DNA of 64,000 bases from Natrialba sp. SSL1 (GTDB lineage: Archaea > Halobacteriota > Halobacteria > Halobacteriales > Natrialbaceae). Positions 6,893-64,000 of this stretch are shown piece by piece; position 1 is the stretch's first letter, and each line of letters begins with the position of its first letter. The translations under genes and the position numbers were made by a program. Location: positions 62,001-126,000 of the forward strand of contig NZ_MASN01000060.1 in assembly GCF_001861355.1 (NCBI RefSeq). The letters are read 5' to 3'. The notes below the pieces were generated by a model that was given only the letters and a program-made list of their open reading frames with translations, had not been told where the DNA came from and did not search any database.

Positions 6893-8077
6893 ATGGTAGA
6901 AACGCTGCTCCTTGTCGGGATTGTTGCGTCTCTCTTCGTCGGGTTCAACATCGGGGGATCGTCGACGGGGATCACGTGGGGGCCGTCTGTCGGCGCTGGG
7001 ATCGTGACGAAGACAACCGCAGCGGCGATCATGACCGTGTTCGTGTTCCTCGGCGGCATAACGGTCGGCCAGGAGGTCATGGGAACGCTCAGTGAAGATA
7101 TTATCACAGTCGATCTCACGCTCTCCGCTGGTGTCGCCGTCCTCTTTTTCATCGGTCTCGGCATCCTCGTCGCCAACATCTTCGGCGTCCCCGTCCCGAC
7201 GTCGATGACGACCGTCGGTGCGATCGCCGGCCTCGGGCTTGCGACGGGAACACTCAACTACGAAATGATCGCCGAAATCATCTCCTGGTGGGTCGTTACG
7301 CCGATTATCGGCTTCTGGATCGGGGGCATTATCGGGCGGTATATCTACCCGTGGGTCAACCGGCGCGTCGATATCAAAAACTCACCGGGCCCACTTCTCA
7401 GCCTCGATCGGCAGGGCACAGTTCCGAAACCGGCGCTCGGCCCGAATACGACAACACAGGAACTCGCAACGACGGTCGTCGTCCTCATCATCGGCTGTTA
7501 CATGGCGTTCAGTGCCGGTGCGTCGAACGTCCCGAACGCCGCAGCACCGCTGGTCGGCGGCGACGACGGACTGGAAATGACCTACGCCGTTCTCCTCGCG
7601 ACCGCCGCCATCGGACTCGGCGGCTTTACCATCGCCCGACGCACCATGGACTCCGTTGGCGGCGAACTAAGCGATATCCCGCTGCTTGCAGCCCTGTTCG
7701 TCATGGTAACCGCCTCGACTATCACAACCACGCTCTCCTATATGGGCATTCCAATCAGCCTCGTGATGTCCACCGTCATGACGATCGTCGGCATCGGGTG
7801 GGGTCGAGCAACTCGTCCGGTGACCTTCCGCGAGGCCGTCACCCGCGACAGCGACGCCCAAGACCGCGAAATCGAACTAGGCGCAATCGTCGCCGAAGAG
7901 CAAGAGGGCGAACGGGCCCCAGCAATCGGTGAAGAGGAGTCCGAAGAGGTGCTCAACGCGGCCGACCTCTTCAACCCCCGCGCCGTCATCAAGTACATCT
8001 CGATGTGGATCATCGGCCCGTCGATGTCGACGCTGCTCGCCTACGGATTCTTTACGCTCTTCCCGGGCATTGCGTGA
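6893..8077 (+). CDS. PiT-family inorganic phosphate permease-like protein (paralogue 1)
   Basis: 394-residue integral membrane protein of the PiT (SLC20-like) family, with the two inverted signature repeats visible as GFNIGGSSTG near residue 17 and SAGASNVPNAAAP in the second half. Classical PiT proteins carry an Asp after the Asn in each signature (GxND); here the positions are Ile and Asn. An acidic cytoplasmic segment lies near residues 320-355. The start is set by the TATA box. A universal-stress gene follows 38 bp downstream and a second PiT paralogue 1.7 kb downstream, suggesting a transport and stress group. The phosphate specificity is inferred from the family only. Confidence 0.85.
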   Translation: MVETLLLVGIVASLFVGFNIGGSSTGITWGPSVGAGIVTKTTAAAIMTVFVFLGGITVGQEVMGTLSEDIITVDLTLSAGVAVLFFIGLGILVANIFGVPVPTSMTTVGAIAGLGLATGTLNYEMIAEIISWWVVTPIIGFWIGGIIGRYIYPWVNRRVDIKNSPGPLLSLDRQGTVPKPALGPNTTTQELATTVVVLIIGCYMAFSAGASNVPNAAAPLVGGDDGLEMTYAVLLATAAIGLGGFTIARRTMDSVGGELSDIPLLAALFVMVTASTITTTLSYMGIPISLVMSTVMTIVGIGWGRATRPVTFREAVTRDSDAQDREIELGAIVAEEQEGERAPAIGEEESEEVLNAADLFNPRAVIKYISMWIIGPSMSTLLAYGFFTLFPGIA

Positions 8078-8115
8078 AACGAGGTTCTTAGCCACTGGGT
8101 GTCGTAGTCACACGC

Positions 8116-8544
8116 ATGCTCTCAACAATCCTCGTGCCGATGGACGACTCCGACCAGGCAGGGCACGCACTCGAGTACGCCCTCGAAAATTTCCCCGAGG
8201 CCGATGTCACTATCCTGCACGTTGTTGGCGTTCCGTCGATGATGATGGGTGACGCAGTAAGTTTGACACTCGAGGACGACCTCAGTGAAGCGGCCGCAGG
8301 GCGCGCTGAGTCGGTGTTCGATCGGGCACACGAGATTGCCGACGAACGGGACCGGGAGATCACGACGGTCGTCGGGATTGGGCATCCGGCGCGAAATATT
8401 CTCAACCGTGCCGAGGAGTACGACACGATCGTTCTCGGGAGTCACGGCGAAGATAGGGATCGGGCAACACACCGGTTTCTTGTCGGGAACGTTGCCGAGA
8501 CAGTGTCAAAGCGGTCACCAGTTCCAGTGACGGTTGTCCGGTGA
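8116..8544 (+). CDS. UspA-type universal stress protein
   Basis: 142-residue single-domain UspA protein, probably ATP-binding. The N-terminal strand MLSTILVPMDDS carries the conserved Asp. The C-terminal motif GSHGEDRDRATHRFLVGNVAE follows the family pattern G-x2-G-x9-G-[ST/N]. It follows the PiT gene by 38 bp on the same strand and may be co-transcribed. In haloarchaea, Usp domains often sit beside transporters; a role in modulating the permease is inference only. Confidence 0.92.
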   Translation: MLSTILVPMDDSDQAGHALEYALENFPEADVTILHVVGVPSMMMGDAVSLTLEDDLSEAAAGRAESVFDRAHEIADERDREITTVVGIGHPARNILNRAEEYDTIVLGSHGEDRDRATHRFLVGNVAETVSKRSPVPVTVVR

Positions 8545-50787: not shown

Positions 50788-50795
50788 GTATATTT
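50788..50795 (+). promoter_or_regulatory. TATA box of the class III aminotransferase gene
   Basis: GTATATTT; expected transcription start about 25-30 bp downstream (near 50818), just before the operator-like palindrome. This favours ATG 50845 over ATG 50812 or TTG 50794. Confidence 0.6.
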
Positions 50796-50820
50796 GAGAC
50801 GCGAATCCTTGATGCTAGAA

Positions 50821-50838
50821 CCGGAAGTACATTTCCGG
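50821..50838 (+). promoter_or_regulatory. NrpR-type operator candidate, site 1
   Basis: CCGGAAGTACATTTCCGG: 6-bp arms, 6-bp spacer. Its core GGAA-N6-TTCC is exactly the consensus published for NrpR in Methanococcus. It starts 33 bp after the TATA box and ends 6 bp before the start codon of the gene that precedes an nrpR homologue. Confidence 0.65.
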
Positions 50839-50844
50839 GATTTG

Positions 50845-52245
50845 ATGACCGAGCCAGAACGACCATCCGACACGTCGGCGGCGGAGTTACTCGCGAGCGA
50901 GCACGAACAGTACCAGGAGCAAACACCGGGCTCAGCGGCGCTTGCCGAGGACCTGGGAGAGCTGGTCCCCGCAGGCGTTTGCAGTACGTATCGTGCGTAC
51001 GACCCGTATCCCGTTCACGCCGAGCGAGCGACGGGAACGAGGATTCACGACGTCGACGGGAACGAGTACCTGGACTTCGCGCTGAACAACGGGACTCAGC
51101 TCGTCGGGCACACGCATCCAGCACTGTCCGAAGCGACCAAAGAGCAGATCGACGACGGGACGCTGTACACGCGACCGAGTGATCTCATCCAGTTCGCAGC
51201 ACAGCCACTCATCGACCGCTGGGAGGCGATCGAACAGGTCCGGTTTACGAACAGCGGCACCGAATCGGTGATGCACTCGATGCGCCTCGCACGGGCGGCG
51301 ACCGGCCGCGAGAAGATCATCCGGATGGAAGGCGCGTACCACGGCGCACACGATCCAGCCCTCGTGAGCAAGATGCCGCCGCTCGACGAGGCCGGACCGG
51401 CCGACGATCCAACGCCGATCAGGGAGTCCCGTGGAATACCGGAGTCTGTCCCAGAGAACATCCTCCTGGCGCAGTACAACGACGCGGAGAGCGTCGAGCG
51501 ACTGCTCCGCGCCCACGAGGACGAGGTTGCGGGGATTCTCGTCGAACCGGCCTGCTTCAATCTCGGCGTCGTCGAACCGGAAGATGGTTTCCTCCATCGG
51601 CTGCGCGAACTGGCCGACGAGTTCGGTGCCGTCCTGATCTTCGACGAAGTCAAGACCGGCGCGAAGATCGCACCCGGCGGCGGGGCCGAGTACTACGGCG
51701 TCCAGCCGGATCTAGTCGCGCTCGCGAAGGCGATCGGCGGCGGCTATCCCGTCGGCGCGTTCGGTGGCAAGCGAGAACTCATGGAACTGGTCGCGGCTGA
51801 TCTCGAGAAGGGCGTCGCGACCGGGGCGGCACACTACGGCACCTACAACGGGAACCCGCTCTCGCTGCGCGCGGTCGGTGTCACGCTGCGGGAGATCCTC
51901 ACGGACGACGCATACGATCACGTCACCGAACTCTCCGAACGCCTGGCGGACGGCTACCGCGACGTGATGGCCGACGCCGACATCGACGGCTACGTCGTCA
52001 CCGCAGGGTCACAGGGAATGGTGTACTTCACCGACGAGCGCGTGCGAACGTTCCGCGACTGGGAACACGTCGACGAGGAACTCCACGAGGCCTACTGGTT
52101 CGGGATGCTCAACCGCGGCGTCATCCCCCACCCGCACGACGCCTCCCAGCAGTGGACGATCAGCGTCCAGCATACGGCAGACGACATTGCTGCACACATC
52201 GACGCCTTCGCGGATCTCGCCACGCATTTATCCGCTGCACAGTAG
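50845..52245 (+). CDS. Class III aminotransferase (GSA-aminomutase-like)
   Basis: 466 residues from ATG 50845. PLP enzyme of the aminotransferase class III fold, closest in look to glutamate-1-semialdehyde aminomutases and omega-amino-acid transaminases. Motifs: TNSGTESVMHSMRLAR, MEGAYHGAHD, LIFDEVKTG and the PLP lysine in LALAKAIGGGYPVGAFGG region. Ten bases separate it from the NrpR-family gene, forming a two-gene operon. In context it could transaminate a terminal amine (putrescine, aminobutyrate or similar). A true hemL function is less likely here, since no other tetrapyrrole gene is nearby. Confidence 0.8.
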   Translation: MTEPERPSDTSAAELLASEHEQYQEQTPGSAALAEDLGELVPAGVCSTYRAYDPYPVHAERATGTRIHDVDGNEYLDFALNNGTQLVGHTHPALSEATKEQIDDGTLYTRPSDLIQFAAQPLIDRWEAIEQVRFTNSGTESVMHSMRLARAATGREKIIRMEGAYHGAHDPALVSKMPPLDEAGPADDPTPIRESRGIPESVPENILLAQYNDAESVERLLRAHEDEVAGILVEPACFNLGVVEPEDGFLHRLRELADEFGAVLIFDEVKTGAKIAPGGGAEYYGVQPDLVALAKAIGGGYPVGAFGGKRELMELVAADLEKGVATGAAHYGTYNGNPLSLRAVGVTLREILTDDAYDHVTELSERLADGYRDVMADADIDGYVVTAGSQGMVYFTDERVRTFRDWEHVDEELHEAYWFGMLNRGVIPHPHDASQQWTISVQHTADDIAAHIDAFADLATHLSAAQ

Positions 52246-52255
52246 GTATCGAACG

Positions 52256-53254
52256 ATGACGAGCGATCCGGATCGACGAACGTACGATATTCTCCGCCTG
52301 CTCGCGGCCCACGAACCCGTTGGGAGCGTCCACCTGACCAACCATCTCCGCGAGCGGGGATACTCCATCACCGAGCGAACGGTCCGGCTCACACTCGCAG
52401 ACCTCGATGACGCCGGCTTGACCGAAAAAGCGGGCGGAAAGGGAAGGCGGCTAACAGTTGCCGGCCGTGCAGAGCTCGACCGCGGCGGCGTCAGTGGCCG
52501 CGTCGAACAGGTCCGTGAGCGACTCGCAGACCTGACAAGCCGTGTGACGTACAACCCAGAGACCGACGACGGAGACGTTGTCGTGGGTACCGTTACCGTG
52601 CCGGCGGCGAACCGATCGGACGTCGAGGCGATCATCGCGGCGATCGACAACTCACCGCTAGGACCAGCCGCGACAGCAGTCGAGTCGGTCGAGCGCGACG
52701 GCGAGGAGTTCCTCGAGATCGCCGCGCCCTCGAGTGTAACGATCGACGGCGTATTGCTCAACGAAGGGATCGACACCGATCTCGAGACGACTGGTGTCGT
52801 CGAGTACCACGCGGAGCCGGAGAGCGTCCCCTACGATGATCCGGAGCCGGCCGCCCACGGCGGTGCGATCAGGCGGTTCACCGACGTGATCGGAGACGAG
52901 CGAGCGACGGTCGACATGGTATCACTGTTGATAGAGGCGCGTCGAACGACGGTCGGCTCGGCGCTTGCGGGTGAGCCAGGGCTTCTCGTCGCCGACAATC
53001 GCGAGTTTCCGCTTGCAAAGTACGACCGCGCACACGAACTCGCAGTCGCCACTCGCCGCCAACTCGGCGGTGTGATCGACGTACGGCGGCCGCGCGAGCC
53101 CGGTCCGTTCCCGTGGGATGAACCGGGCTGGGCGTTCGCCTCGCTGACGTGCGTCGGTCTCTCCGAGTGTCTCATCGCCCGTTGCGTCGAGGAAGGAATC
53201 GCGACGGAGTGGGAAACGCTGTCACGGGTTCACGATCGAACGGATCTAAAATAG
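52256..53254 (+). CDS. NrpR-family transcriptional regulator (copy 1)
   Basis: 332 residues. The N-terminal winged helix is about 5-72 (RRTYDILRLLAAHEPVGSVHL...TVRLTLADLDDAGLTEK...GRRLTVAGRAEL), the RNase R-type wing used by NrpR. A single NrpR (DUF128) effector domain follows (about 90-325), with APSSVTIDGVLLNEG as a shared landmark with copy 2. In methanogens NrpR represses nitrogen genes and is released by 2-oxoglutarate. Operon with the aminotransferase upstream. Paralogue at 58827-59957. Confidence 0.85.
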   Translation: MTSDPDRRTYDILRLLAAHEPVGSVHLTNHLRERGYSITERTVRLTLADLDDAGLTEKAGGKGRRLTVAGRAELDRGGVSGRVEQVRERLADLTSRVTYNPETDDGDVVVGTVTVPAANRSDVEAIIAAIDNSPLGPAATAVESVERDGEEFLEIAAPSSVTIDGVLLNEGIDTDLETTGVVEYHAEPESVPYDDPEPAAHGGAIRRFTDVIGDERATVDMVSLLIEARRTTVGSALAGEPGLLVADNREFPLAKYDRAHELAVATRRQLGGVIDVRRPREPGPFPWDEPGWAFASLTCVGLSECLIARCVEEGIATEWETLSRVHDRTDLK

Positions 53255-53396
53255 GCTGACACCTTCATTCTACTCTCGAATGGAGTTGGACCACAAAATA
53301 TCGGATCGTCTCATCATCTGGTAAGTCATTTAAAATAACACGAGAGGAGTGGGCAACAGTGTCGCTAAGAGACACGTCACCACGCACTGTGGGAAG

Positions 53397-53404
53397 TTTT
53401 ATGT
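53397..53404 (+). promoter_or_regulatory. TATA box of the ABC transporter operon
   Basis: TTTTATGT, 36 bp before the operator-like palindrome at 53433; start site expected near 53427. Confidence 0.5.
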
Positions 53405-53432
53405 AGAGATAGCAAGCATACGTGGAGTAGGT

Positions 53433-53446
53433 GGCAATTGTATGCC
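53433..53446 (+). promoter_or_regulatory. NrpR-type operator candidate, site 2
   Basis: GGCAATTGTATGCC, i.e. GGCA-N6-TGCC, overlapping the start codon of the binding-protein gene. Preceded by GGT as in site 3. Confidence 0.5.
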
Positions 53447-54545
53447 AGCAGAAAACACGCACGGGAGACGGACGTTCCTTCGATCGACGGCGGCAGCGGG
53501 GAGTGTCGCCGCCCTCGGAGGGCTCGCAGGCTGTACAGGAATGCTCGACGGCGGGGATGACACGCTGACCGTTGCGGTCTACGGCGGTGTGTTCCAGGAT
53601 GTCATGGACGAGGAACTCTTCGCTCCGTTCGAAGAGGAAACCGACATCAGCGTCGAGTCAGAGGCACAACCAACATCCGAGGAAGCGCTCACGCAGTACG
53701 AGAACGCCGTCGGTGCCGGCGACGCGCCAGTCGACGTCGCAATTATGGCACAGACCGGTGTCCTTCAGGGACTGAACTCGGATCTGTGGCACATCTGGGA
53801 CGACGACGAGTTCGAGAATCTCGAGTACATCAGCGACGACCTCGTCGGCGAGGCCGACGGCGGTATCTCGAGTATCGGCGCGCTGTCGTGGTACATCAAC
53901 CTCGTCCAGAACACGGACGTCATCGAGGAGCCAGTTGACTCCTGGGAGGCGCTCTGGGATGAGGAGTACGAGGACACGCTCGGCCTGCTCGGGTACGCGT
54001 CGAACTCGTTCCTGCTCGAGGTTACCGCAGAAGTGCACTTCGACGGCCAGGACATTCTCGACGACCGCGACGGCGTCGAGGAAGTGTTCGAGGAACTCGA
54101 GGGCGTCACTGATCAGGCCAACTTCTGGTACGAGAACGAAGCGGAGTTCCAGCAGCGTCTCCGAGACGGTGAAGTGCCGGCAGGGATGCTCTACAGTGAC
54201 ATTACGCGCGTCATGCAGGACGACGGCGCGCCGGTCCAGTCGAACTTCGTCCAGGAAGGGTCGATCCTCGACTCCGGGCTTTGGGTCACACTCGAGACGT
54301 CCGACCTCAAGGAGGAGGCGCGCGAGTTTATCGACTACGCGAGTCAGCCCTCGGTGCAGGACGAACTGGCACAGGGACTGTACACGAGTCCGACGGTCGA
54401 GCGCGAGTACTCCGAGATCGACGACGACTTCTATGAGGAAATCGCCGGACCAGGACCGGACGAAGCGATCACGCCCAAGTACGAACTCTACGTCGAGGAA
54501 GAAGACTGGGTTAGTGAGCGCTGGGAACAGTTCATCATCGGCTAA
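53442..54545 (+). CDS. ABC importer substrate-binding lipoprotein (PotD-like)
   Basis: 367 residues from ATG 53442. Tat signal RRTFLRSTAAAGS with lipobox LAGC, then a spacer and a family 1-type periplasmic-binding fold (LTVAVYGGVFQDVMDEELFA, GALSWYINLVQNTDVIEEPV, WEALWDEEY). It resembles spermidine/putrescine binding proteins, though thiamine or iron-type proteins share the fold. Gene order (binding protein, ATPase, fused permeases, amidase) supports an organic nitrogen ligand. Confidence 0.85.
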   Translation: MPAENTHGRRTFLRSTAAAGSVAALGGLAGCTGMLDGGDDTLTVAVYGGVFQDVMDEELFAPFEEETDISVESEAQPTSEEALTQYENAVGAGDAPVDVAIMAQTGVLQGLNSDLWHIWDDDEFENLEYISDDLVGEADGGISSIGALSWYINLVQNTDVIEEPVDSWEALWDEEYEDTLGLLGYASNSFLLEVTAEVHFDGQDILDDRDGVEEVFEELEGVTDQANFWYENEAEFQQRLRDGEVPAGMLYSDITRVMQDDGAPVQSNFVQEGSILDSGLWVTLETSDLKEEAREFIDYASQPSVQDELAQGLYTSPTVEREYSEIDDDFYEEIAGPGPDEAITPKYELYVEEEDWVSERWEQFIIG

Positions 54546-54570
54546 GTCAATCGATCTAATCTAATTGTTC

Positions 54571-55683
54571 ATGAGTGGAATTTCACTTGCAGGAGTAAAG
54601 AAACGGTATCCGGGTGGCGTCCTCGCAGTCAAAGGTGTCGATATCGATATCGAGAGCGGCGAGTTCGTAACGCTCGTCGGCCCGTCTGGCTGTGGCAAGA
54701 CGACGACCCTCCGAACGATCGCCGGGTTCGAGACGCCGACGGACGGGAGTGTCCACATCGACGGGAACGAGGTCACCGACGCGCCACCGTACGAGCGAGA
54801 CACCGGGATGGTCTTCCAGGACTTCGCGCTGTTCCCGCACATGACCATTCACGAGAATATCGCCTACGGGATGGAGGCCTCGGGTGACTACACCACCGAG
54901 GAGATCGACGCCCGCGTCGAGGAAATGCTCGAACTCGTCGAACTACCCGGGGTAGGCGACCGCACGCCAGACCAGCTCTCGGGCGGCCAACAGCAGCGTA
55001 TCGCGCTCGCACGTGCACTCGCACCGCGACCGAAGGCGCTGTTGCTCGACGAGCCGCTTGCGAGCCTCGACAAGCAACTGCGCGAGCAGATGCAGGTCGA
55101 ACTACGCCGCATTCAACAGGAAATCGGGATCACGACCGTCTTCGTCACGCACAATCAGGAAGAGGCGCTGACGATGTCGGACCGTCTGGCAGTGATGAAC
55201 GACGGCAAGTTCGAACAGGTCGGTCCGCCGGAAGAGGTGTACAACGACCCTGATTCGCGCTTCGTCGCGGACTTCCTCGGAACGGCAAACATCTTCGACG
55301 GGACCGTCTCGGCGGTCGAGAACAACTACGCGATGGTCGACTGCGACGACGTCTCCGTACAGGCTGCGGTACAGAACGGCGTCTCGGCCGGCGACGACAC
55401 TTCGGTCGTCATCCGTCCGGAGCGGTTCCGGTTCGACGACGGGACCGCCGGCAACGCCGGTGCAGCCAGCGCAGACGGCGGCACGAACGCCGGCGGGATG
55501 ACCGTCTTCGAGGGAGAGATTACCTTCAAGCGACACCTCGGCAGTAGCGTCGAATTCCATCTCGAAACCGACAGCGGCCGCGAAATCACCGTCGTTCGGC
55601 GAAGCGGGATGGACAAACGAGGCCCCGGAGACCGAGTGGCGGTCTCCGTCGCGGCCGACGACTGTCGACTCGTGGAGGCATAG
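54571..55683 (+). CDS. ABC importer ATPase (PotA-like)
   Basis: 370 residues from ATG 54571. Walker A GPSGCGKTTT, Q-loop FQDFALFPH, signature LSGGQQQR, Walker B ALLLDEPLASLD, H-loop FVTHNQ. A C-terminal TOBE-type domain (about 240-370) contains a Gly/Ala-rich loop. Of the CUT/spermidine importer class. Directly followed by the permease ATG. Confidence 0.93.
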   Translation: MSGISLAGVKKRYPGGVLAVKGVDIDIESGEFVTLVGPSGCGKTTTLRTIAGFETPTDGSVHIDGNEVTDAPPYERDTGMVFQDFALFPHMTIHENIAYGMEASGDYTTEEIDARVEEMLELVELPGVGDRTPDQLSGGQQQRIALARALAPRPKALLLDEPLASLDKQLREQMQVELRRIQQEIGITTVFVTHNQEEALTMSDRLAVMNDGKFEQVGPPEEVYNDPDSRFVADFLGTANIFDGTVSAVENNYAMVDCDDVSVQAAVQNGVSAGDDTSVVIRPERFRFDDGTAGNAGAASADGGTNAGGMTVFEGEITFKRHLGSSVEFHLETDSGREITVVRRSGMDKRGPGDRVAVSVAADDCRLVEA

Positions 55684-57663
55684 ATGGGTTCCGATACCGA
55701 CACCAGCGCCGACACTGACACCACCCCCGCCACCGAGGCTGCTCCCGAACTCGCAGCCGACGGTGGAACAGCGACGGGTAGTGACACCGCAAGCGGGGAC
55801 GATGCCGGGCGTGCGGGCCTGAAAGCGAGAGCGAAGTGGTACGCACTGTCGTATCCGCTGTTCTGGCTCGTCGCCGTCTTCTTCGTCCCGCTGTGTCTGC
55901 TGTTCGTCTTCAGCTTCTGGGTGAACATTCCCGGCGGACAGTACGAATTCGGGTTCACGTTCGAGAACTACCTCCGCTTCGTCAGTGTCGACTTCACGTC
56001 GTCCTGGCCGTTCATCGAGCCCGGACTCTATCTCAGCCAGATGTGGCTGACGATCGAACTGGCGCTCGTGACAGCCGTCTTCTCGCTGCTGCTTGGCTAT
56101 CCGATCGCGTACTACCTCGCACGGATGGACCGACCGTGGCTGCGTAGCCTGCTGCTTATCACCATCATCTCGTCGCTGTGGGTGACGTACGTCATCCGCG
56201 CGTACGCCTGGCAGGTCATCCTGGCCTCCGGCGGCGTCCTGAGTTCGATCGGCGTTGCGACCGGAATTCTCTCCGAGCCGCAGTCGTTCTATCCGGGCTA
56301 CTGGGGACTGGTCGTCGGCATGGTGTACGTCTTCCTGCCGTTCATGATCCTCACGCTCTACAGCAGCATCCGGAATATCGACGGCGAACTGCTCGAGGCC
56401 TCGAAGAACCTCGGTGCGGGGTCGGTGAAGACGTTCCGCCGTGTGACGCTCCCACTCTCGAAGAACGGGATCACGAGCGGCATGGCGCTCGTCTTCATCC
56501 TCGCGCTCGGCTCGTACGTGCTGCCACGACTGCTCGGTAGCTCCGCCGAACGGACGCTGCCGGTGCTGATCGAACAGCAGATCATGAGCGAGAGTAACTA
56601 CCCGTTCGCCGCCGCGATGAGTATCGGCCTGATCCTCGTCGTGATCGTGTTCCTCTGGGCGCTCATCCGCATGACGAACGTCACCGCGGGCAGCCTCGGT
56701 GGGAACGAAGAGGTCGCGACCGACGGCGGCTCCCAGCAACCCGGCTCGACGGGATCCAGCCCGTTCGCGAAGGTTCGTGGCGGGTTCGGTAGCGCCGCGT
56801 CGGCAATCGGGCTCACCGCCGTCGCCGGTCAGATCGGGAGCGCAATCGACTCGGTCGTCACACGCGTCGACGCCAAAACGCGCGAATCGGTGATCTGGGT
56901 AACGTTCCGTGCGTACGTCGCGGCAGCGATGGCGTTTATCGCCGTTCCGATCGCGATCATCATCGCCGTCTCGTTCACTCCTGAACAGTTCCTGACGTTC
57001 CCACCGGGTGGGTTCTCCATGCAGTGGTACGTCGAGTTCTTCACGAGTGAATCGTGGATGGTGGCGTTGGTCAACAGCTTCGCCATCGCAGGGGCCGCAG
57101 CACTCCTGAGTACGACGATCGGCGGCGGACTCGCCTTCGCTCTCGACCGATTCGACTACAAGTGGAGTTCGATCTACGGCACCTTTGGTGTGCTACCGAT
57201 CCTCGTGCCGCCGGTGATCATCGGGGTCGCGTTCCTGGTGTTCTTCCTCGAGCTCGGCATCGCCGGCTCGCGGACGAGCATCATCGTCGCACACGGGATC
57301 TTCTACGCACCGTTCCCGTTCATCCTGATCTCACAGGGGCTCGACGAGATTGACCGAACCTACGAGGAGGCCGCGATGAACCTCGGCGCATCGTCGCTGC
57401 GAACGCTGCGAACCATCACGTACCCGCTCATCCGAGCGAACGTGATCTCGGGTGCGCTGTTCGCGTTCATCCTCTCGTTGAACGAGTACATCATCGCGTG
57501 GCTGCTGTCGCTGTTCCTCGTCAACACCATTCCGATCGAGATCTTCAACTCGCTTCGGTACGGCTACTCGCCGACCATCGCGGCCGCCAGTGTGGTCTTC
57601 ATCGCCCTCACTGTGGTCGTGATGACGGCGATTGACCGCTTCTCCGGAGGGATCTGGGAGTAA
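55684..57663 (+). CDS. Fused two-domain ABC permease (PotB-PotC-like)
   Basis: 659 residues, about twice the length of one permease. A disordered 45-residue DT-rich leader precedes domain 1 (about 50-335) with EAA loop LLEASKNLGAGSVKTFRRV. A Gly/Ser/amphipathic linker (about 340-400) leads to domain 2 (about 405-655) with EAA loop YEEAAMNLGASSLRTLRTI. Each domain has about six helices. The two permease subunits are usually separate proteins in polyamine importers. No internal stop or frameshift: the fusion is by open reading frame. Confidence 0.88.
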   Translation: MGSDTDTSADTDTTPATEAAPELAADGGTATGSDTASGDDAGRAGLKARAKWYALSYPLFWLVAVFFVPLCLLFVFSFWVNIPGGQYEFGFTFENYLRFVSVDFTSSWPFIEPGLYLSQMWLTIELALVTAVFSLLLGYPIAYYLARMDRPWLRSLLLITIISSLWVTYVIRAYAWQVILASGGVLSSIGVATGILSEPQSFYPGYWGLVVGMVYVFLPFMILTLYSSIRNIDGELLEASKNLGAGSVKTFRRVTLPLSKNGITSGMALVFILALGSYVLPRLLGSSAERTLPVLIEQQIMSESNYPFAAAMSIGLILVVIVFLWALIRMTNVTAGSLGGNEEVATDGGSQQPGSTGSSPFAKVRGGFGSAASAIGLTAVAGQIGSAIDSVVTRVDAKTRESVIWVTFRAYVAAAMAFIAVPIAIIIAVSFTPEQFLTFPPGGFSMQWYVEFFTSESWMVALVNSFAIAGAAALLSTTIGGGLAFALDRFDYKWSSIYGTFGVLPILVPPVIIGVAFLVFFLELGIAGSRTSIIVAHGIFYAPFPFILISQGLDEIDRTYEEAAMNLGASSLRTLRTITYPLIRANVISGALFAFILSLNEYIIAWLLSLFLVNTIPIEIFNSLRYGYSPTIAAASVVFIALTVVVMTAIDRFSGGIWE

Positions 57664-58613
57664 TGACCGATGCGGGTTCGGGTTCGGGTGTAGACTCGGA
57701 TACCAAACCGGGCTCGGCCGCGGACGCACCGGCGGCCGCTACCGACGCGCGGATCGTCGTCGCACAGACGAAACCCGCGTTCGGCGAGGTCGAGCGCAAC
57801 CGCGAGCACACGGTCGCACTCGTCCGTGAGCACGCGACCGCCGATCTGATCGTCCTCCCCGAACTCGCAACCTCAGGCTACGTCTTCGAATCGGAAGCCG
57901 AACTCGCTGCGATGGCCGAACCGCGCGACGGCGAGACGGCCGACGCGTGGGCCGCTGTCGCAGCCGAGACGGACACCTGGATCGTCGGCGGCTTTCCCGA
58001 AGCCGTGGACGGGGACGTCGATGCAGATACAGACGTAACCACGGACACAGACACAACCGACGCAAACGACCGATACTACAACAGCGCCCTCGTCGTCTCA
58101 CCGAACGGCGTCGAGGCCGTCTACCGAAAGCTCCACCTCTGGAACGAGGAGCATCGCTGGTTCACCGCCGGCGACGAGGTGACGGTCGTCGACACACCGT
58201 TCGGCCGACTCGGGGTCCAGATCTGCAACGATCTCTGGTTTCCCGAACTGACGGTGACGCAGGCGAAAGCGGGCGTCGACCTCGTCGCCGTCCCGACCAA
58301 CTGGGTCCCCGGTCCCGCAGACGGGACCCGACCCGGCGGCTGGACGATCGGCGCACATCAGGCGCTCGCCCACGCGAACGCGAACCGCGTTTTCATGGCC
58401 TGTGCAGACCGCGCAGGAACGGAACGCGGCGTCACGTTCGAAGGCCAGAGCGTTATCCTCGATCCGAACGGCCTCCCGCTCGCCGGCCCGGCACCAGTCG
58501 ACGGCGAGCACGCGCTCACGACGGCGTGTGACCTCACTCGAGCGCGCAACAAGGAACTCACACCGTACGACGACGCACTCGCATCGCGTCGTCCCGAGCA
58601 CTACGACTGGTAA
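57663..58613 (+). CDS. Nitrilase-superfamily amidohydrolase
   Basis: 316 residues. Catalytic triad visible: Glu67 (LPELATSGY), Lys156 (YRKLHLW), Cys188 (QICNDLWFPE). The first ~27 residues and a TD-repeat loop (about 115-135) are disordered. The family cleaves C-N bonds of N-carbamoylputrescine, 2-oxoacid omega-amides, ureido acids and others. Co-encoded with the importer: its ATG overlaps the permease stop by one base (TAATG), so it likely acts on the imported compound or a product of it. Confidence 0.85.
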   Translation: MTDAGSGSGVDSDTKPGSAADAPAAATDARIVVAQTKPAFGEVERNREHTVALVREHATADLIVLPELATSGYVFESEAELAAMAEPRDGETADAWAAVAAETDTWIVGGFPEAVDGDVDADTDVTTDTDTTDANDRYYNSALVVSPNGVEAVYRKLHLWNEEHRWFTAGDEVTVVDTPFGRLGVQICNDLWFPELTVTQAKAGVDLVAVPTNWVPGPADGTRPGGWTIGAHQALAHANANRVFMACADRAGTERGVTFEGQSVILDPNGLPLAGPAPVDGEHALTTACDLTRARNKELTPYDDALASRRPEHYDW

Positions 58614-58826
58614 CACCCAACACTCGAGCGCGGCGACACCCACGACCACTCAGAGGCACCCCGTGTCGCCGTGACGATTATGTACGTACTCGAGTACCGA
58701 GTACTGAGTCTCGAGTGCCGACTCCCGTTTTTCCAGTCTGTGAGTGTGATTACGCACAGCCAGAGACAGGACAGTGAACGGAGTCGAGCAGCGCTGAACT
58801 GGCTGGGTACGGAAAATAGCGCCGTC

Positions 58827-59957
58827 TCAATCGTCGAGCGGTGCTGGAACCACTGTCTCGATCGGCTCGAACGTGCTCCGTTCGGCCGTGCCGTACAACG
58901 TATCCCACTCGGTTGTGATGTCGTACTCGCTCAGCGCTGAGAGCAGCAGTTCGCCGGCACCGACGTAGGTCAACGAGCCAAAGGCCCATGCGGAACTGCC
59001 GTTCGGAAGCTTGTCCTGTTCGCGGGGCCGCCGAAAGTCCAGCACGCCACCGATCGCGTCGCGGCTCGCAACCGCGAGGTCGCGGGCCTCCTCGTACCGG
59101 TTGATCGGGAACTGTCGACCGTCGCCGACCAGCAGTCCGGGTCCCTCGCCCTCGAGAACGCTCCGAACGTCGGTACGCCCCGACTCGATCAACAGCGAAA
59201 TAACGTCGATCGACGACCCCTCGCCGTTGATAACGTCCACGTAGCGAACGATTCGGCCGCCGCTCTGGATGTCGACGTCCGGGTCATGGCTCTCAGTTCC
59301 GCTTGCGGGCTGGCTCTTGGTTTCAGTCTCGCCGGTGCCATCCCCGTCCCCGTCCCCGTTCCCATCCTCATCCCCATCCAATCGCTGCGACACCGCAACC
59401 GGCTCGTACTCGAGTAACCCTGCCGTCGCAAGATCCGCGTTGACCCCGTGAGCGAGCAGCACGCCATCGAGGGTGATGCTCGAGGGGACGAGCAGGCGAA
59501 CGTCGCCGGGTTCGCTCTCGGCGCTGTCCTCGAGTGCGATCGGGATCGGGCCGAGCGGGAGGGACTCGAGTGAGGCGACGAGATCGAGTGCCTCATCGAC
59601 GGCGTCTTCGTCGAGGTAGGCGGCCGAGGCAACGAGTGCGCCGGTGTCCTCGAGCGGGTCGTAGCTGACGCGGCTAGTGAGGGCGGCGATGCGGGCGCGG
59701 ATCTGTTCGAGGCGGCTGCTGACGTCGCCCTGTTCGAGTTCGTCGCGGCCGCGCTGTGTCAGGCGCCGTCCCTGGCCGGGGACTTTCTCCGTGAGCCCGA
59801 GGTCGTCGAGTTCGGAGAGTGTGAGCCGGATCGTCCGGTCTTTGATGTCGTAGCCGTGGAGCTGCATGAGTTCGACGAGTTGGATGCTGCCGATCGGGCT
59901 GTGGCGGTCGACGAGTCGAAGGAGGTCGTACGTCCGTCTATCGAGCTCCGGAGCCAT
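58827..59957 (-). CDS. NrpR-family transcriptional regulator (copy 2)
   Basis: 376 residues. Same architecture as copy 1: winged helix about 5-75 (RRTYDLLRLVDRHSPIGSIQL...GRRLTQRGRDEL) and one NrpR domain (VPSSITLDGVLLAHGVN). It has a long Asp/Gly/Thr-rich insertion (about 195-230, DGDEDGNGDGDGDGTG). It is encoded on the opposite strand between the importer operon and the ureohydrolase operon. Paralogy suggests hetero- or antagonistic regulation of the island. Own promoter has no clear palindrome. Confidence 0.82.
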   Translation of the reverse strand: MAPELDRRTYDLLRLVDRHSPIGSIQLVELMQLHGYDIKDRTIRLTLSELDDLGLTEKVPGQGRRLTQRGRDELEQGDVSSRLEQIRARIAALTSRVSYDPLEDTGALVASAAYLDEDAVDEALDLVASLESLPLGPIPIALEDSAESEPGDVRLLVPSSITLDGVLLAHGVNADLATAGLLEYEPVAVSQRLDGDEDGNGDGDGDGTGETETKSQPASGTESHDPDVDIQSGGRIVRYVDVINGEGSSIDVISLLIESGRTDVRSVLEGEGPGLLVGDGRQFPINRYEEARDLAVASRDAIGGVLDFRRPREQDKLPNGSSAWAFGSLTYVGAGELLLSALSEYDITTEWDTLYGTAERSTFEPIETVVPAPLDD

Positions 59958-60116
59958 TCAGAGGATAGTGGATGAGGGAGACCACCAAGCTTTGGGTTCG
60001 GGTTGGTTTTGGGGGGAGACACTGGCATCGAACAGGAGTCAGTTCGAGCCTGGGTCACCCCGTATGTGTTCGGGAAGAGTGGTTGTGTTTGGGTGCTGTC
60101 CGCACGCGGTGCGTAA
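59958..60116. other. Divergent intergenic region between NrpR copy 2 and the ureohydrolase operon
   Basis: Non-coding; no clear palindrome or TATA box for the minus-strand regulator was found. The plus-strand promoter begins at about 60117. Confidence 0.4.
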
Positions 60117-60124
60117 CCTTATTA
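60117..60124 (+). promoter_or_regulatory. TATA-like box of the ureohydrolase operon
   Basis: CCTTATTA, 32 bp before the 14-bp palindrome at 60149; initiation expected near 60147. Confidence 0.5.
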
Positions 60125-60148
60125 GTGCTGTCGCGAAACGAATAGGGT

Positions 60149-60162
60149 GGCAACTAGTTGCC
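60149..60162 (+). promoter_or_regulatory. NrpR-type operator candidate, site 3
   Basis: GGCAACTAGTTGCC, a perfect 14-bp palindrome of the GGCA-N6-TGCC form. Spacing from the TATA box (32 bp) matches sites 1 and 2 (33 and 36 bp). It ends 13 bp before the ATG of the 35-codon ORF. Confidence 0.6.
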
Positions 60163-60175
60163 GGGATGTATTAGA

Positions 60176-60283
60176 ATGACACTCGATCTCTCGCAGTCGC
60201 GAGCAGTCGGAACAGTGACAGGGGATGCTTCGCAATCGACCGCGCTGGCTGGCAGTCAGCAACTCGAGGTGGATACCCGATGA
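60176..60283 (+). CDS. 35-residue ORF, putative leader or small protein
   Basis: ATG 60176 to TGA 60281-60283; the stop overlaps the ureohydrolase ATG as ATGA, the coupling arrangement used by this genome's operons. The product (MTLDLSQSRAVGTVTG...) is polar, Ser/Gln/Thr-rich with no membrane segment. It lies correctly placed behind a promoter and operator. A leader peptide or short partner protein is possible; coding status is unproven. Confidence 0.4.
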   Translation: MTLDLSQSRAVGTVTGDASQSTALAGSQQLEVDTR

Positions 60284-61284
60284 GCGACCAGCATCCCGCG
60301 GCCGCGTTCCGAGAGTCAGTTGAGGGAGCGAACGTGGAACTCGCGTATGCTGGTCCGAAGACGTTCCTGAAGGGGGAGATGCGGGATGTCGGTGACGTCT
60401 CCGACGTCGACGCGGCAACGTTTGGCGTCCCCTACGACGGTGCGGTCTCGAACCGACCGGGTGCGCGCTACGGCCCCCAGGCCATCCGGCGCGCAAGCGG
60501 TTGGTGGGCGTATCTCTCCGACTACAAGGGCGGACTCACGAACATGCAGACCGGGAAGCAGGTGAACTTCGACGATCTCAGCGTCGCTGACTGTGGTGAC
60601 GCACCGATCTTCCCGATGGACAGCGAGACGACCGCCGAGAGCATCGCCGCACACATGGCGACGGTCTCATCGCAGACGTTCCCCGTTATGCTCGGCGGCG
60701 ACCACTACTGTACGTTCCCAGCTCTCCGCGGGTTCGCGGAGGGTGCCGAACACGACGACGTCGGCTTCGTCCAGATCGACGCCCACACCGACACCACCTC
60801 CGAGAGTCCCGTCTTCGGCACGGACTTCCACGGCTCGAGTACGGCGCTGATCGCAGACTCCGAGTACACCGACTACGAGCACGTCAGCCAGGTCGGCATC
60901 CGCGGCTACGAATCTCCCGAATTCTTCGAGTTCGCCGAGGAAACCGGACTCAATCTCTACACGATGCGCGACGTCGAAGACCAGGGCATCACGTCGGTCG
61001 TCGCCGACGCGGTCGCCGCCGCGGCCGAGGGAACCGACGCGGTCTACGTCTCCTTCGATATCGATGCCGTCGATCCGAGCGTCGCGCCGGGAACCGGCAC
61101 TCCTGTGCCAGGCGGACTGACCCCACACCAGGCGCTCAAGACGATGGAAGTGCTCGGCGAGACCGACGACGTCGGCGCGGTCGACATGATGGAGGTTGCA
61201 CCCCGGTACGACTCCGACGAGGGCACCCAGCGACTCGCCTCCTACCTGCTCGTGACGCTACTCGAGCGCAAATTCGCGGAGTGA
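60280..61284 (+). CDS. Agmatinase-type ureohydrolase
   Basis: 334-residue Mn-dependent ureohydrolase. All six metal ligands are present: His142 (GGDHY), Asp167, His169, Asp171 (DAHTD), Asp260 and Asp262 (FDIDAVDP). Releases urea from a guanidino compound; agmatine, guanidinobutyrate, arginine or a related substrate cannot be distinguished from sequence. The first ~35 residues and the WWAYLSDYKGG region probably shape the substrate pocket. 4 bp before the next gene, an aminotransferase, on the same transcript. Confidence 0.85.
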   Translation: MSDQHPAAAFRESVEGANVELAYAGPKTFLKGEMRDVGDVSDVDAATFGVPYDGAVSNRPGARYGPQAIRRASGWWAYLSDYKGGLTNMQTGKQVNFDDLSVADCGDAPIFPMDSETTAESIAAHMATVSSQTFPVMLGGDHYCTFPALRGFAEGAEHDDVGFVQIDAHTDTTSESPVFGTDFHGSSTALIADSEYTDYEHVSQVGIRGYESPEFFEFAEETGLNLYTMRDVEDQGITSVVADAVAAAAEGTDAVYVSFDIDAVDPSVAPGTGTPVPGGLTPHQALKTMEVLGETDDVGAVDMMEVAPRYDSDEGTQRLASYLLVTLLERKFAE

Positions 61285-61288
61285 TACA

Positions 61289-62461
61289 ATGACACGAACA
61301 CCCGATTTCGACGACGGTGCAATCGGCAGTTCCCGAACCTCGGGCGTCGCCGAGTCGGTCATCCGCGAGATGACTCGCGAGGCGATCGACCGCGGCGCGA
61401 TCAACCTCTCACAGGGGATTCCCGACGAGGACGAGACACCACCCGAGATCAAGGCCGCCGCTCAGGAGGCGATCGAGACCGACAGCCAGTACACGATCAC
61501 CTGGGGGCTGCCCGAACTGCGCGACGCCGTCGCCGAGCGCTACGCCGAGTGGAAGGGCGTCGAGTACGACCCCGAAACCGAGGTCACGATCACCAGCGGC
61601 ACCAGCGAGGCCATCATGTCGACGATGCTCTCGCTTGCCGGCCCCGGCGACGAGGTCATCTACTTCGAACCCGTCTACGAGAGCTACATCCCCGCGAGCC
61701 AGTTCGCGGGCGCGAGCGCCGTTCCTATCGACATCACTGACGGCCTCGGTATCGACTTCGAGGCACTCGAAGCAGCGGCCGAGAACGCCCGGATCATCGT
61801 GCTCAACACCCCGATGAATCCGACGGGGAAGGTGTTCACGCGCGAGGAACTCGAGCGCATCGAGGAACTCGTCTTCGAACACGACCTGATCGTGCTCACC
61901 GACGAGATCTACGAGCACATCGTCTACACCGACGACTATATCAGTCCGGTCGAGGTCGGCGACCTCGCCGACCGGACCATCGTCTGTACGGGCATGTCGA
62001 AGACGTTCAGCGTCACCGGCTGGCGCGTCGGCTTCTGTCTCGCACCCGAGTACCTCTCGAAGGAACTCCGGAAGATCCACGACTACACGAGCATCTGCGC
62101 GCCGACGCCGTTCCAGAAGGCCGGCGTCGAAGCGCTCGAGCTACCCGACTCGTACTACCAGGAGCTCTCGGATTCCTACGAAGAGCGACGCGACATCCTC
62201 TACGACGGGCTGCAGGAAGCGGGCCTCGACCCGGTCAAACCAGACGGCGCGTACTACATTCTAACGCGATATCCGACCGACGAGGACGACATCGAGTTCT
62301 GTTACCGGCTCATCCGCGAGGCCGGCGTCGCCGCCGTCCCGGGCAGTAGCTTCTACACGGACCCCGACGCCGACTCGGACTGGGTCCGGTTCACCTTCTC
62401 GCGCAACGAGGAGACGATTCGCGAGGCGGTCGACCGGCTCGTCGAGAACCGCTGGTGGTAG
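61289..62461 (+). CDS. Class I/II PLP aminotransferase
   Basis: 390-residue fold type I aminotransferase of the kynurenine/glutamine-transaminase and aromatic/aspartate branch. Motifs: NLSQGIPDEDETP, GTSEAIMSTML, VLNTPMNPTGKVF, LTDEIYEHIVY and the PLP lysine in TGMSKTFSVTGWRVGF. Four bases after the ureohydrolase. It may remove the alpha-amino group of the imported compound, or of glutamine, producing an omega-amide for the island's nitrilase-type amidase. Confidence 0.85.
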   Translation: MTRTPDFDDGAIGSSRTSGVAESVIREMTREAIDRGAINLSQGIPDEDETPPEIKAAAQEAIETDSQYTITWGLPELRDAVAERYAEWKGVEYDPETEVTITSGTSEAIMSTMLSLAGPGDEVIYFEPVYESYIPASQFAGASAVPIDITDGLGIDFEALEAAAENARIIVLNTPMNPTGKVFTREELERIEELVFEHDLIVLTDEIYEHIVYTDDYISPVEVGDLADRTIVCTGMSKTFSVTGWRVGFCLAPEYLSKELRKIHDYTSICAPTPFQKAGVEALELPDSYYQELSDSYEERRDILYDGLQEAGLDPVKPDGAYYILTRYPTDEDDIEFCYRLIREAGVAAVPGSSFYTDPDADSDWVRFTFSRNEETIREAVDRLVENRWW

Positions 62462-62878: not shown

Positions 62879-63892
62879 TCAGAACGCCGCCTCGATCCGC
62901 TCGAGTGCCGCTTCGACATCGTCCGCCGACACATCGCGGTGCGTACAGAACCGAACCGTCGTCGGGCCGAACGCCGTCGCCAGCACGTCCTGCTCTTCTA
63001 AGGACTCGAGTACCGCCTCCGTGTCGAGCCCGGTACCAGCAACGTCCGCGAGGACGATGTTCGTCTCCGGCGCTTGCACGTCGAAGCCGTCGATCTCGTC
63101 CAGCCCGTTCGCGAGCGCGCGGGCGTTCTCGTGATCCGTTGCGAGTGACTCGACGTTCTCGAGTGCACAGAGTGCTGGGCCGGCGATGATGCCGGCCTGG
63201 CGCATGCCACCGCCGAGGAGCTTGCGGGTGCGACGGGCCTCCTCGATGAACGCCTCGGAGCCGGCGAGCATCGAGCCGACCGGCGCGCCGAGGCCCTTCG
63301 AGAGCGAGACCATGACGGTGTCGACCGGATCGACGATTTCGGCGACGGGAACGTCGAGCGCCGTCGCGGCGTTGAACACGCGCGCGCCGTCGAGATGGAC
63401 GGGGACGTCGTTCTCGTGGGCCGCCTCGGCTGCGGCAGCGATCTTTTCGGGGTCGATCGCGAGGCCGCCGCGGGCGTTGTGGGTGTTCTCGAGACAGAGC
63501 AGGCCGGTGCCGGGTCGGTGGAGTTCCTCCTCGACGAGGCCGGCCTCGACCTGTTCTGGCGTCGGGACGCCCCGGCCGGTGTCGAGCATCCGCACCTGCA
63601 GGCCGGCGAGGTCTGCAAAGCCCCCGAGTTCGTACTTCACGACGTGGCTCTTGCGGTCTGCGAGCACCTCCTGCCCGCGTTCGGTGTGGACGCGACCGGC
63701 GATCTGATTCGCCATCGTGCCCGTTGGACAGTACATCGCTGCCTCGGTGCCGAGCCGTGCAGCGACGCGGGACTCGAGTTCGGCCACAGTCGGGTCCTCG
63801 CGGTAGACGTCGTCGCCGACCTCGGCGTCTCGGGCAGCCTCGCGCATTCGATCGTCGGGTGTCGTCACGGTATCCGAGCGAAAGTCGATCAT
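62879..63892 (-). CDS. ltaE: Low-specificity L-threonine aldolase family protein
   Basis: PLP-dependent beta-elimination of threonine/allo-threonine to glycine and acetaldehyde. Starts at ATG 63892 with the family N-terminus MIDFRSDTVTTPDD. PLP lysine in MVSLSKGLGAPVGSM; HLDGARVFNAA and GGGMRQAGI are conserved. 337 residues. The open frame to 63931 adds 13 residues of no family character. The 108 bp beyond to the window end hold nothing else. Confidence 0.9.
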   Translation of the reverse strand: MIDFRSDTVTTPDDRMREAARDAEVGDDVYREDPTVAELESRVAARLGTEAAMYCPTGTMANQIAGRVHTERGQEVLADRKSHVVKYELGGFADLAGLQVRMLDTGRGVPTPEQVEAGLVEEELHRPGTGLLCLENTHNARGGLAIDPEKIAAAAEAAHENDVPVHLDGARVFNAATALDVPVAEIVDPVDTVMVSLSKGLGAPVGSMLAGSEAFIEEARRTRKLLGGGMRQAGIIAGPALCALENVESLATDHENARALANGLDEIDGFDVQAPETNIVLADVAGTGLDTEAVLESLEEQDVLATAFGPTTVRFCTHRDVSADDVEAALERIEAAF

Positions 63893-64000
63893 GCGACGCA
63901 GTTGCCGGTCGCCGGCAAAGAACGCTGGCATGTGCGGGCGGTCAGCCAGAGAGTCTCATACTCGGACACCCGTACGCCGTATCGGTGATCATAGTATTGT

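Follow-up and report, generated by a model that had tools for sequence, protein, structure and literature searches.

Gene content of the locus

Nine genes in a 64,000-nucleotide stretch of contig NZ_MASN01000060.1 of Natrialba sp. SSL1 (positions 62,001 to 126,000; hereafter the window, to which all coordinates refer) probably constitute a haloarchaeal island that breaks down a guanidino compound and is controlled by NrpR-family repressors turned pathway specific. The genes were called from open reading frames (ORFs) and from Pfam and NCBIfam profile scans of their translations (Table 1), which confirmed the content, coordinates, and tight spacing given in the original prediction, made from the DNA letters alone. 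A gene for a class III aminotransferase (AT3) is followed on the same strand by genes for an NrpR-family regulator (NrpA), a solute-binding protein (SBP), the ATPase of an ATP-binding cassette (ABC) importer, a fused permease, and an amidase of the nitrilase superfamily (NIT). A second NrpR-family gene (NrpB) follows in the opposite orientation, divergent from a unit encoding a ureohydrolase (UREH) and a class I aminotransferase (AT1). AT3 and NrpA are separated by 10 bp, the permease and nitrilase genes overlap by 1 bp, and the gap between UREH and AT1 measures 4 bp. The genome containing the window (G000) has a size of 4.58 Mb, is 99.5% complete, and carries five arginase-family genes.

Table 1. 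Genes and predicted regulatory sites of the island
Feature	Position	Strand	Remarks
Operator CCGGAA-N6-TTCCGG (core GGAA-N6-TTCC)	50821..50838	.	TATAT element 34 bp upstream
AT3, class III aminotransferase, glutamate-1-semialdehyde/beta-amino-acid transaminase branch	50845..52245	+	PF00202, 194.5 bits
NrpA, NrpR-family regulator, winged helix and one NRD	52256..53254	+	PF01995, 79.1 bits; PF08461, 47.6 bits
Operator GGTGGCA-N6-TGCCR, overlapping the SBP start codon	53430..53447	.	35 bp downstream of TTTAT
SBP, PotD-like solute-binding protein	53442..54545	+	PF13416 (SBP_bac_8), 87.6 bits; 53442 is the likely start
ABC importer ATPase, PotA/PhnT2-like	54571..55683	+	PF00005, TOBE_2; listed NCBIfam models under their cutoffs
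Fused PotB-PotC-type permease	55684..57663	+	two BPD_transp_1 stretches in one protein
NIT, nitrilase-superfamily amidase (CN_hydrolase)	57663..58613	+	PF00795, 136.3 bits
NrpB, second NrpR-family regulator	58827..59957	-	PF01995, 71.7 bits; PF08461, 43 bits; transcribed away from the UREH-AT1 unit
Operator GGTGGCA-N6-TGCCR, between NrpB and UREH	60146..60163	.	30 bp downstream of TTATT
Leader ORF, 35 codons	60176..60283	+	stop overlaps the UREH start codon (ATGA)
UREH, binuclear-metal ureohydrolase (arginase family)	60280..61284	+	PF00491, 256.5 bits
AT1, class I aminotransferase, near the YbdL/glutamine aminotransferase/KAT group	61289..62461	+	PF00155, 235.9 bits

Conservation and modular structure of the island

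The neighborhood scans covered 80 haloarchaeal loci fetched by their place, rather than every one of the ortholog-bearing genomes described below, and all linkage and site counts are raw, i.e., kinship among the genomes is ignored. Synteny beyond the strain, which had been named as a check of the original prediction, was evident: the nine genes occur in the same order in 13 of the 80 loci, across genera and families (L016 to L021, L023, L026, L027, L029, L030, L089, and L096), none of which belongs to the last fetched batch of 20. Three of these loci (L027, L029, and L030) have an extra aminotransferase gene, AT3b, between NrpB and UREH, and in L018 the nitrilase was matched only as two pieces. 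Partial sets are present in L022, L024, and L025 (without AT3 and NrpA), L028 (without AT1), L092 (first half only), and L112, where importer, nitrilase, UREH, and AT1 stand together without NrpR and without AT3. In L053 (genome G073, 7412 to 8400), NrpB and UREH were partly matched at a junction and 98 UREH residues are left; this is either a decayed copy or an assembly error.

Orthologs of UREH with at least 63% identity over nearly the full length were found in 34 of 121 genomes of the family (window genome included), and, across the order, 66 of the 342 genomes have orthologs with at least 62% identity, 30 of these 66 being without an NrpR match. The common core elsewhere in haloarchaea consists of NrpB divergent from or adjoining UREH, often accompanied by AT3b, a class III aminotransferase of the γ-aminobutyrate (GABA)/acetylornithine type (361 bits with the GABA transaminase model; cutoff, 507). 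In genome G222, the genes from AT3 through NrpA, SBP, ABC ATPase, and permease to the nitrilase are located on one contig (L092) and NrpB, AT3b, and UREH on another (L091). Because the halves are separate there, the island consists of two modules, the nitrilase going with AT3 and the importer, and AT1 with the ureohydrolase. UREH orthologs with at least 63% identity are also carried by 18 plasmid records, all predicted to be nonmobilizable, one of which, from Natrinema versiforme, contains the complete island. In loci without the ABC importer, a sodium:solute symporter (SSF) and a cyclase-family hydrolase (PF04199) recur beside NrpB and UREH (L036, L041, L043, L086, L088, L091, L098, and L105).

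Palindromic sites in the island promoters

The window contains palindromic sites of two types, one with the core GGAA-N6-TTCC ahead of AT3 and one with the core GGCA-N6-TGCC at SBP and at the UREH unit. The former equals the NrpR consensus of Methanococcus maripaludis, in which nif, glnA, and glnK-amtB carry it (PMC2723118), and it has also been reported ahead of nitrogen genes of Methanobacterium formicicum (PMC4335013). Counting presence of the motif only, all 17 AT3 promoters compared have GGAA-N6-TTCC ahead of the AT3 start or across it. The AT3 ORF of the window is open from position 50812, and the true start is probably 50845, because the operator falls inside the longer ORF; this operator probably controls the AT3-NrpA unit. 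All 20 NrpR-bearing island loci have GGCA-N6-TGCC across the SBP start codon, and L100, a 21st locus with a more distant SBP, has it at position -179. The SBP loci without NrpR show a start-codon site in 0 of 8 cases and some site further upstream in 2 (L049 and L124).

For the UREH unit, the count comprised 67 of 81 loci (80 fetched plus the window); paralogs with less than 62% identity (L048 to L051, L054, L055, and L119 to L123), the truncated L053, and L092 and L124, which have no ureohydrolase, were left out. The counts of exact and one-mismatch sites also exclude L052 with its 22 usable upstream bases. Exact palindromes stand in 35 of the 45 loci with and 3 of the 21 loci without NrpR (Fisher test, 1.6e-6, kinship ignored), and 33 of these 35 sites are of the GGCA type; if one mismatch is allowed, the numbers are 45 of 45 versus 4 of 21. 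Here, "without NrpR" means that there is none in the locus; the genomes of L123, L124, and L125 (G266, G209, and G282) have NrpR elsewhere. Compared with dinucleotide shuffles, sites were observed in 17 of 17 SBP regions (shuffled mean, 0.03 regions), 23 of 36 regions between NrpB and UREH (mean, 0.13), and 10 of 17 AT3 regions, which had been cut too short for this comparison (mean, 0.07).

Upstream of the site, at a distance of 24 to 36 bp, 15 of 17 AT3 promoters and 15 of 20 SBP promoters have a TATA-like element. At this spacing, the AT3 and SBP sites should cover the transcription start, like a repressor site. In the entire window genome, the extended GGAA-type pattern has a single exact match and the extended GGCA-type pattern has two, all inside the island. 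The extended patterns were derived from the island sites and demonstrate specificity rather than an independent discovery, and this uniqueness refers to exact extended matches, one-mismatch matches existing as well. The upstream regions of amt and of the four glutamine-synthetase-like genes of the window genome contain no site (0 of 5), nor do the promoters of L112, whose genome has no NrpR match. A candidate site at the AT1 promoter was rejected, as the motif (5 of 20) lies, by its position, within the ureohydrolase coding sequence.

NrpR-family proteins and their linkage to the ureohydrolase

The literature presents NrpR as the master repressor for nitrogen in methanogens. In both NrpA and NrpB, the HTH_12 winged helix and the NRD domain score above the Pfam cutoffs, and a profile of 27 homologs finds NrpR MJ0159 (3nek) at 1.3e-8, NrpA alone reaching only 0.44. 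The two proteins differ in the winged-helix region (ITERTVR in NrpA versus IKDRTIR in NrpB) and are the only PF01995 (NRD family) proteins of the window genome. PF01995 was detected in 37 of the 342 genomes of the order; these are Pfam matches at an E value of 0.001, which more divergent homologs may escape. In 37 of 37 NrpR-bearing genomes, 19 from other families and 18 from the window's family (where G073 has only a fragment of the ortholog), an NrpR-type gene lies within approximately 8 kb of a UREH ortholog, mostly adjacent to it. Every NrpR match examined among the 342 genomes falls in one of the two modules of the island, including an extra NrpA in L092, which sits near urease instead of UREH. 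A PF01995 scan of Haloferax volcanii, used as a control genome, gave no match; an H. volcanii study states that the master regulator NrpR is not conserved in nonmethanogenic haloarchaea (PMC6801745).

Tables derived from RefSeq already assign the names "NrpR regulatory domain-containing protein" and "agmatinase" to the respective genes. Literature searches on NrpR, agmatinase, and guanidinobutyrate or agmatine in haloarchaea or Natrialba returned, among the matches listed and within their excerpts, no report of the island or of a function of haloarchaeal NrpR, and a term search of the main text of the N. magadii genome paper gave no match to NrpR, agmatin, nitrilase, or guanidino (PMC3403918). 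The genes themselves are on record, but, as far as these searches reach, no function has been described for them.

Proposed assignment and action of the repressors

Loci L022, L024, and L025 retain NrpB and the GGCA sites, NrpA and AT3 being absent from the locus, and two of the three genomes (G064 and G039) have a single NrpR match. Because GGCA sites are kept there without NrpA, and L112 has neither NrpR nor sites, the distribution favors binding of NrpB to GGCA and, by elimination, of NrpA to GGAA. In the proposed wiring, NrpB would occupy GGCA-N6-TGCC in two places, one at the operon that encodes the importer (SBP-ABC-permease-nitrilase) and one between nrpB and the UREH-AT1 unit, and NrpA would occupy GGAA-N6-TTCC ahead of its own AT3-NrpA operon. 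Each repressor would block a basal promoter until it is released by an effector, which may be 2-oxoglutarate or the imported nutrient. In these haloarchaea, NrpR has the appearance of a local, pathway-specific switch, because every NrpR match examined lies in a module of the island, exact extended sites occur only there, and amt and the glnA-like genes are without sites.

Features of the ureohydrolase

The six metal ligands of UREH (H142; D167, H169, and D171; D260 and D262) are unchanged across 25 homologs, and the Glu-Lys-Cys triad of NIT (E67-K156-C188) is unchanged across 15, so that both catalytic sets recognized in the original prediction are not only intact but invariant. When placed in a tree alongside seven PDB references, UREH and some haloarchaeal paralogs make up a clade (support, 97/99), and another paralog of the genome, own_L005, groups with 3pzl and 3lhl, agmatinases by annotation (100/99); E. 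coli SpeB was outside this tree. Two arginase-family paralogs are located with two glutamine-synthetase-like genes in 45 kb of the window genome (G000:C4, 91514 to 135804), perhaps a polyamine region. The AlphaFold model of UREH (predicted local distance difference test, 82.9) has the arginase-superfamily fold, with Z scores of 28 to 36 among the matches listed.

A further feature of UREH is an enlarged loop, WWAYLSxYKGG (residues 75 to 85), which is 8 to 9 residues longer than in the references and in which W75, Y78, S80, and K83 are invariant among the 25 homologs. It sits at a known place of capping loops: Trp68 of E. coli agmatinase caps the neighboring active site (PMC8125230), and Arg72 of GbuA may contact the carboxylate of guanidinobutyrate from the neighboring subunit (PMC9772407). 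Val178 of UREH is aligned to the position of M161, a specificity residue of guanidinobutyrase/guanidino acid hydrolase (PMC10833137). From these features, we expect the substrate to be a guanidino compound, whatever its head group.

Importer, further enzymes, and fate of urea

The translation of SBP displays an RR motif and a lipobox, and the protein is a probable lipoprotein exported via the twin-arginine translocation pathway; its PDB matches, to PotD and to GABA- and agropine-binding proteins, are weak. The N-terminal half of the permease is PotB-like and the C-terminal half PotC-like, with NCBIfam scores under the cutoffs. Of the 342 genomes, 24 contain an SBP relative (E value of 1e-50 or better), and in 21 of these 24 a ureohydrolase lies within 10 kb, the exceptions being G222 (urease nearby), G206 (fragmented assembly), and G209. 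Differently built loci (L048, L049, L113, L119, L120, and L123) combine the same importer type with two or three ureohydrolases, and some of them add amidases and a biuret-hydrolase-like gene. Among them, L048 (1993 to 14882), L049, and L123 combine a split-permease importer, two ureohydrolases, and one or more biuret-amidohydrolase-like hydrolases in a locus without NrpR, joined in L048 and L049 by an amidase; they possibly represent a second catabolic cluster, of guanidino or biuret type.

The best NCBIfam models of AT3, GntE (363.8) and PRK00062 (357.6), are both under their cutoffs, and its closest PDB entries are glutamate-1-semialdehyde aminomutases; AT1 matches Rv0858c, the glutamine aminotransferase of Thermus, and YbdL, and NIT is closest to archaeal nitrilases. 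A threonine-aldolase-family gene (62879 to 63931, minus strand; 371 bits with the GntG subfamily model) is a neighbor of the island in the window's genus only. The names of the best models for AT3 (GntE) and the aldolase (GntG) and of the fourth model for AT1 (GntC) prompted a reading as guanitoxin-like biosynthesis. This was rejected: both aminotransferases are below the equivalog cutoffs, GntG is a broad aldolase subfamily, and the aldolase was found beside the island in the genus only.

By its position, the leader ORF preceding UREH is a remnant of a lost AT3b. In L022, L023, and L026, leaders at the same place are longer and match the N terminus of AT3b with 43 to 53% identity; the leader of the window itself is too eroded for a match. 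Because those leaders still resemble AT3b, it was probably lost in the window, and AT1 or AT3 would have taken over its role. In the proposed pathway, the PotD-type ABC system would import the guanidino compound, the amidase would trim an amide where needed, the ureohydrolase would release urea, and the transaminases would hand the amine that is left on to a 2-oxo acid.

The host of the window has no urease as judged by PF00449 (a marginal match of 22.9 bits, compared with 163.8 bits for a true urease), and the released urea may therefore be left unused. Urease was found in 90 of 342 genomes, and a coupling to the ureohydrolase was considered and dropped: 21 of 66 genomes with a UREH ortholog have urease versus 69 of 276 without, which gives no clear global link. 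Four of the 24 importer-bearing genomes (G222, G142, G266, and G068) do have urease no more than 15 kb from the importer gene; in G222, the urease genes (L092, 12981 to 18394) are near the module of AT3, NrpA, importer, and nitrilase.

Discussion

Gene content, gene order, the linkage of regulator and ureohydrolase, and the conserved palindromes in the promoters are direct sequence observations. They make it very likely that the island serves a guanidino compound, and on the same basis the predicted control by NrpR is well supported. Of the original idea of an NrpR-controlled island for uptake and catabolism of a guanidino, polyamine, or amide compound, a guanidino island and its regulation are supported by synteny and NrpR-type operators; the accompanying picture of NrpR as a general nitrogen repressor is not. 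A broader version, to which we give slightly less than even weight, is that NrpR of the Halobacteriales lacks a global role, has been duplicated, has acquired a second operator code (GGCA beside GGAA), and has spread solely as a switch dedicated to one ureohydrolase catabolon, the enzyme of which would form a new subfamily with an enlarged aromatic capping loop and an undescribed guanidino substrate.

Several observations weigh against a guanidino island under this regulation. Ten of the 45 NrpR-bearing UREH units have one-mismatch sites only, two of the 35 exact sites (L035 and L091) belong to a type other than GGCA, and a TATA-like element was found 20 to 40 bp upstream for only 12 of these 35. 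The motif is present at 1 of 9 linked SSF promoters and 1 of 15 cyclase promoters, the exception being locus L091. As to the assignment of the repressors, L036, L038, L041, and L043 have NrpB only, yet show both site types near nrpB, and L091 has a GGAA-type site at AT3b; neither pattern is explained by pairing NrpA with GGAA and NrpB with GGCA. Finally, no arginine of UREH is aligned to Arg72 of GbuA, and UREH barely passes the agmatinase equivalog model TIGR01230 (177.4 versus a cutoff of 174.3 bits), which favors agmatine.

Our tentative first choice for the reaction, held at somewhat under even odds, is the cleavage of 4-guanidinobutyrate to GABA and urea; agmatine, in second place, and another guanidino compound are each less probable, to a similar degree. 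In Haloterrigena turkmenica, AT3b-UREH, in a locus without NrpR, adjoins an annotated NAD-dependent succinate-semialdehyde dehydrogenase, and aldehyde dehydrogenases also stand beside AT3b-UREH or UREH in L045, L086, and L105. Because of these neighbors, a route from 4-guanidinobutyrate via GABA to succinate semialdehyde fits. The alternative to be taken most seriously, although we consider it unlikely, is an agmatine island, in which UREH would form putrescine and urea, the importer would transport agmatine or polyamines, and two transaminations and two aldehyde oxidations would follow. Besides the TIGR01230 score, the resemblance of the importer to PotD, PotA, and PotB-PotC, the aldehyde dehydrogenase genes of L045, L086, and L105, and the names "agmatinase family protein" or speB in the plasmid records speak for agmatine. 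However, the succinate-semialdehyde dehydrogenase is compatible with either route, it is another paralog that groups with annotated agmatinases, UREH belonging to its separate clade, and UREH stays under the agmatinase subfamily model PRK02190 (211.8 versus 302).

An NrpR that is still a 2-oxoglutarate-sensing general nitrogen regulator, with the island as one of several targets, would agree with the retention of the NRD domain and of the GGAA-N6-TTCC operator. We regard this view, which the original prediction had drawn from methanogens, as improbable: the genome has just the two NRD proteins, exact extended sites are confined to the island and missing at amt and the four glnA-like genes, and all NrpR matches of the order that were examined lie in the two modules. 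Less probable still is a role of UREH as a nickel-dependent guanidine hydrolase of the GdmH kind, or as a hydrolase of another small guanidine, e.g., a methylated one, in an island that scavenges free guanidine. Its best PDB sequence matches are indeed the guanidinases 7esr/7oi1 and 9fek, and the best structural matches listed are metformin hydrolase (Z score, 35.7) and guanidinase (35.4), ahead of agmatinase and guanidinopropionase (about 32); the top rows of this ranking lie within 1 Z and do not choose a substrate, and guanidinobutyrase is outside the listed rows, which is not informative. Against it, Thr97 and Trp305 (Synechocystis numbering), the guanidine-specificity residues of GdmH (PMC11410670), are replaced by Ser57 and Thr274, the latter invariant in 25 homologs, and UREH and GdmH are apart in the tree. 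No nickel chaperone of the HypA/HypB type was found among ten island and neighbor proteins scanned, the genome not having been searched for them. A glutamine-transaminase/omega-amidase pair made up of AT1 and the nitrilase, alongside which the ureohydrolase would feed in, the second version of the original prediction, is very improbable. AT1 does resemble glutamine aminotransferase/KAT and L112 keeps both genes without AT3, but the nitrilase is nearer to archaeal nitrilases (113 bits) than to Nit2 (42 bits) and in G222 belongs to a module that stands without AT1.

The reading of the locus as a guanidino catabolic island places the haloarchaeal NrpR homologs, their probable sites, and their apparent role as a local switch, and it marks the importer and a ureohydrolase group now labeled agmatinase as genes for guanidino nitrogen in hypersaline habitats. 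Compared with PotABCD, the importer has the same protein families and gene order; it differs in its fused permeases, in scores below the PotA, PotB, PotC, and PotD cutoffs, and in its linkage to a ureohydrolase. UREH shares with GbuA and human guanidino acid hydrolase (GDAH) the ureohydrolase family and the metal ligands, and in a relative there are GABA-transaminase-like and succinate-semialdehyde dehydrogenase neighbors, whereas the separate clade, the enlarged aromatic loop at the position of Arg72, and Val178 in place of Met161 set it apart. With GdmH, it has in common the top PDB sequence score and a similar N-terminal YAGxxTFxK stretch, and with metformin hydrolase and guanidinase the top Z scores, but not the specificity residues of GdmH. 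The NrpR regulon of methanogens, finally, is matched in the winged-helix and NRD family and in the GGAA-N6-TTCC sites. It differs in that the exact extended sites are restricted here to the island, away from amt and the glnA-like genes, and in that two paralogs coexist with a second site type, GGCA-N6-TGCC, a combination of two repressors and two operators that offers a natural experiment on how an archaeal repressor changes its DNA and ligand specificity.

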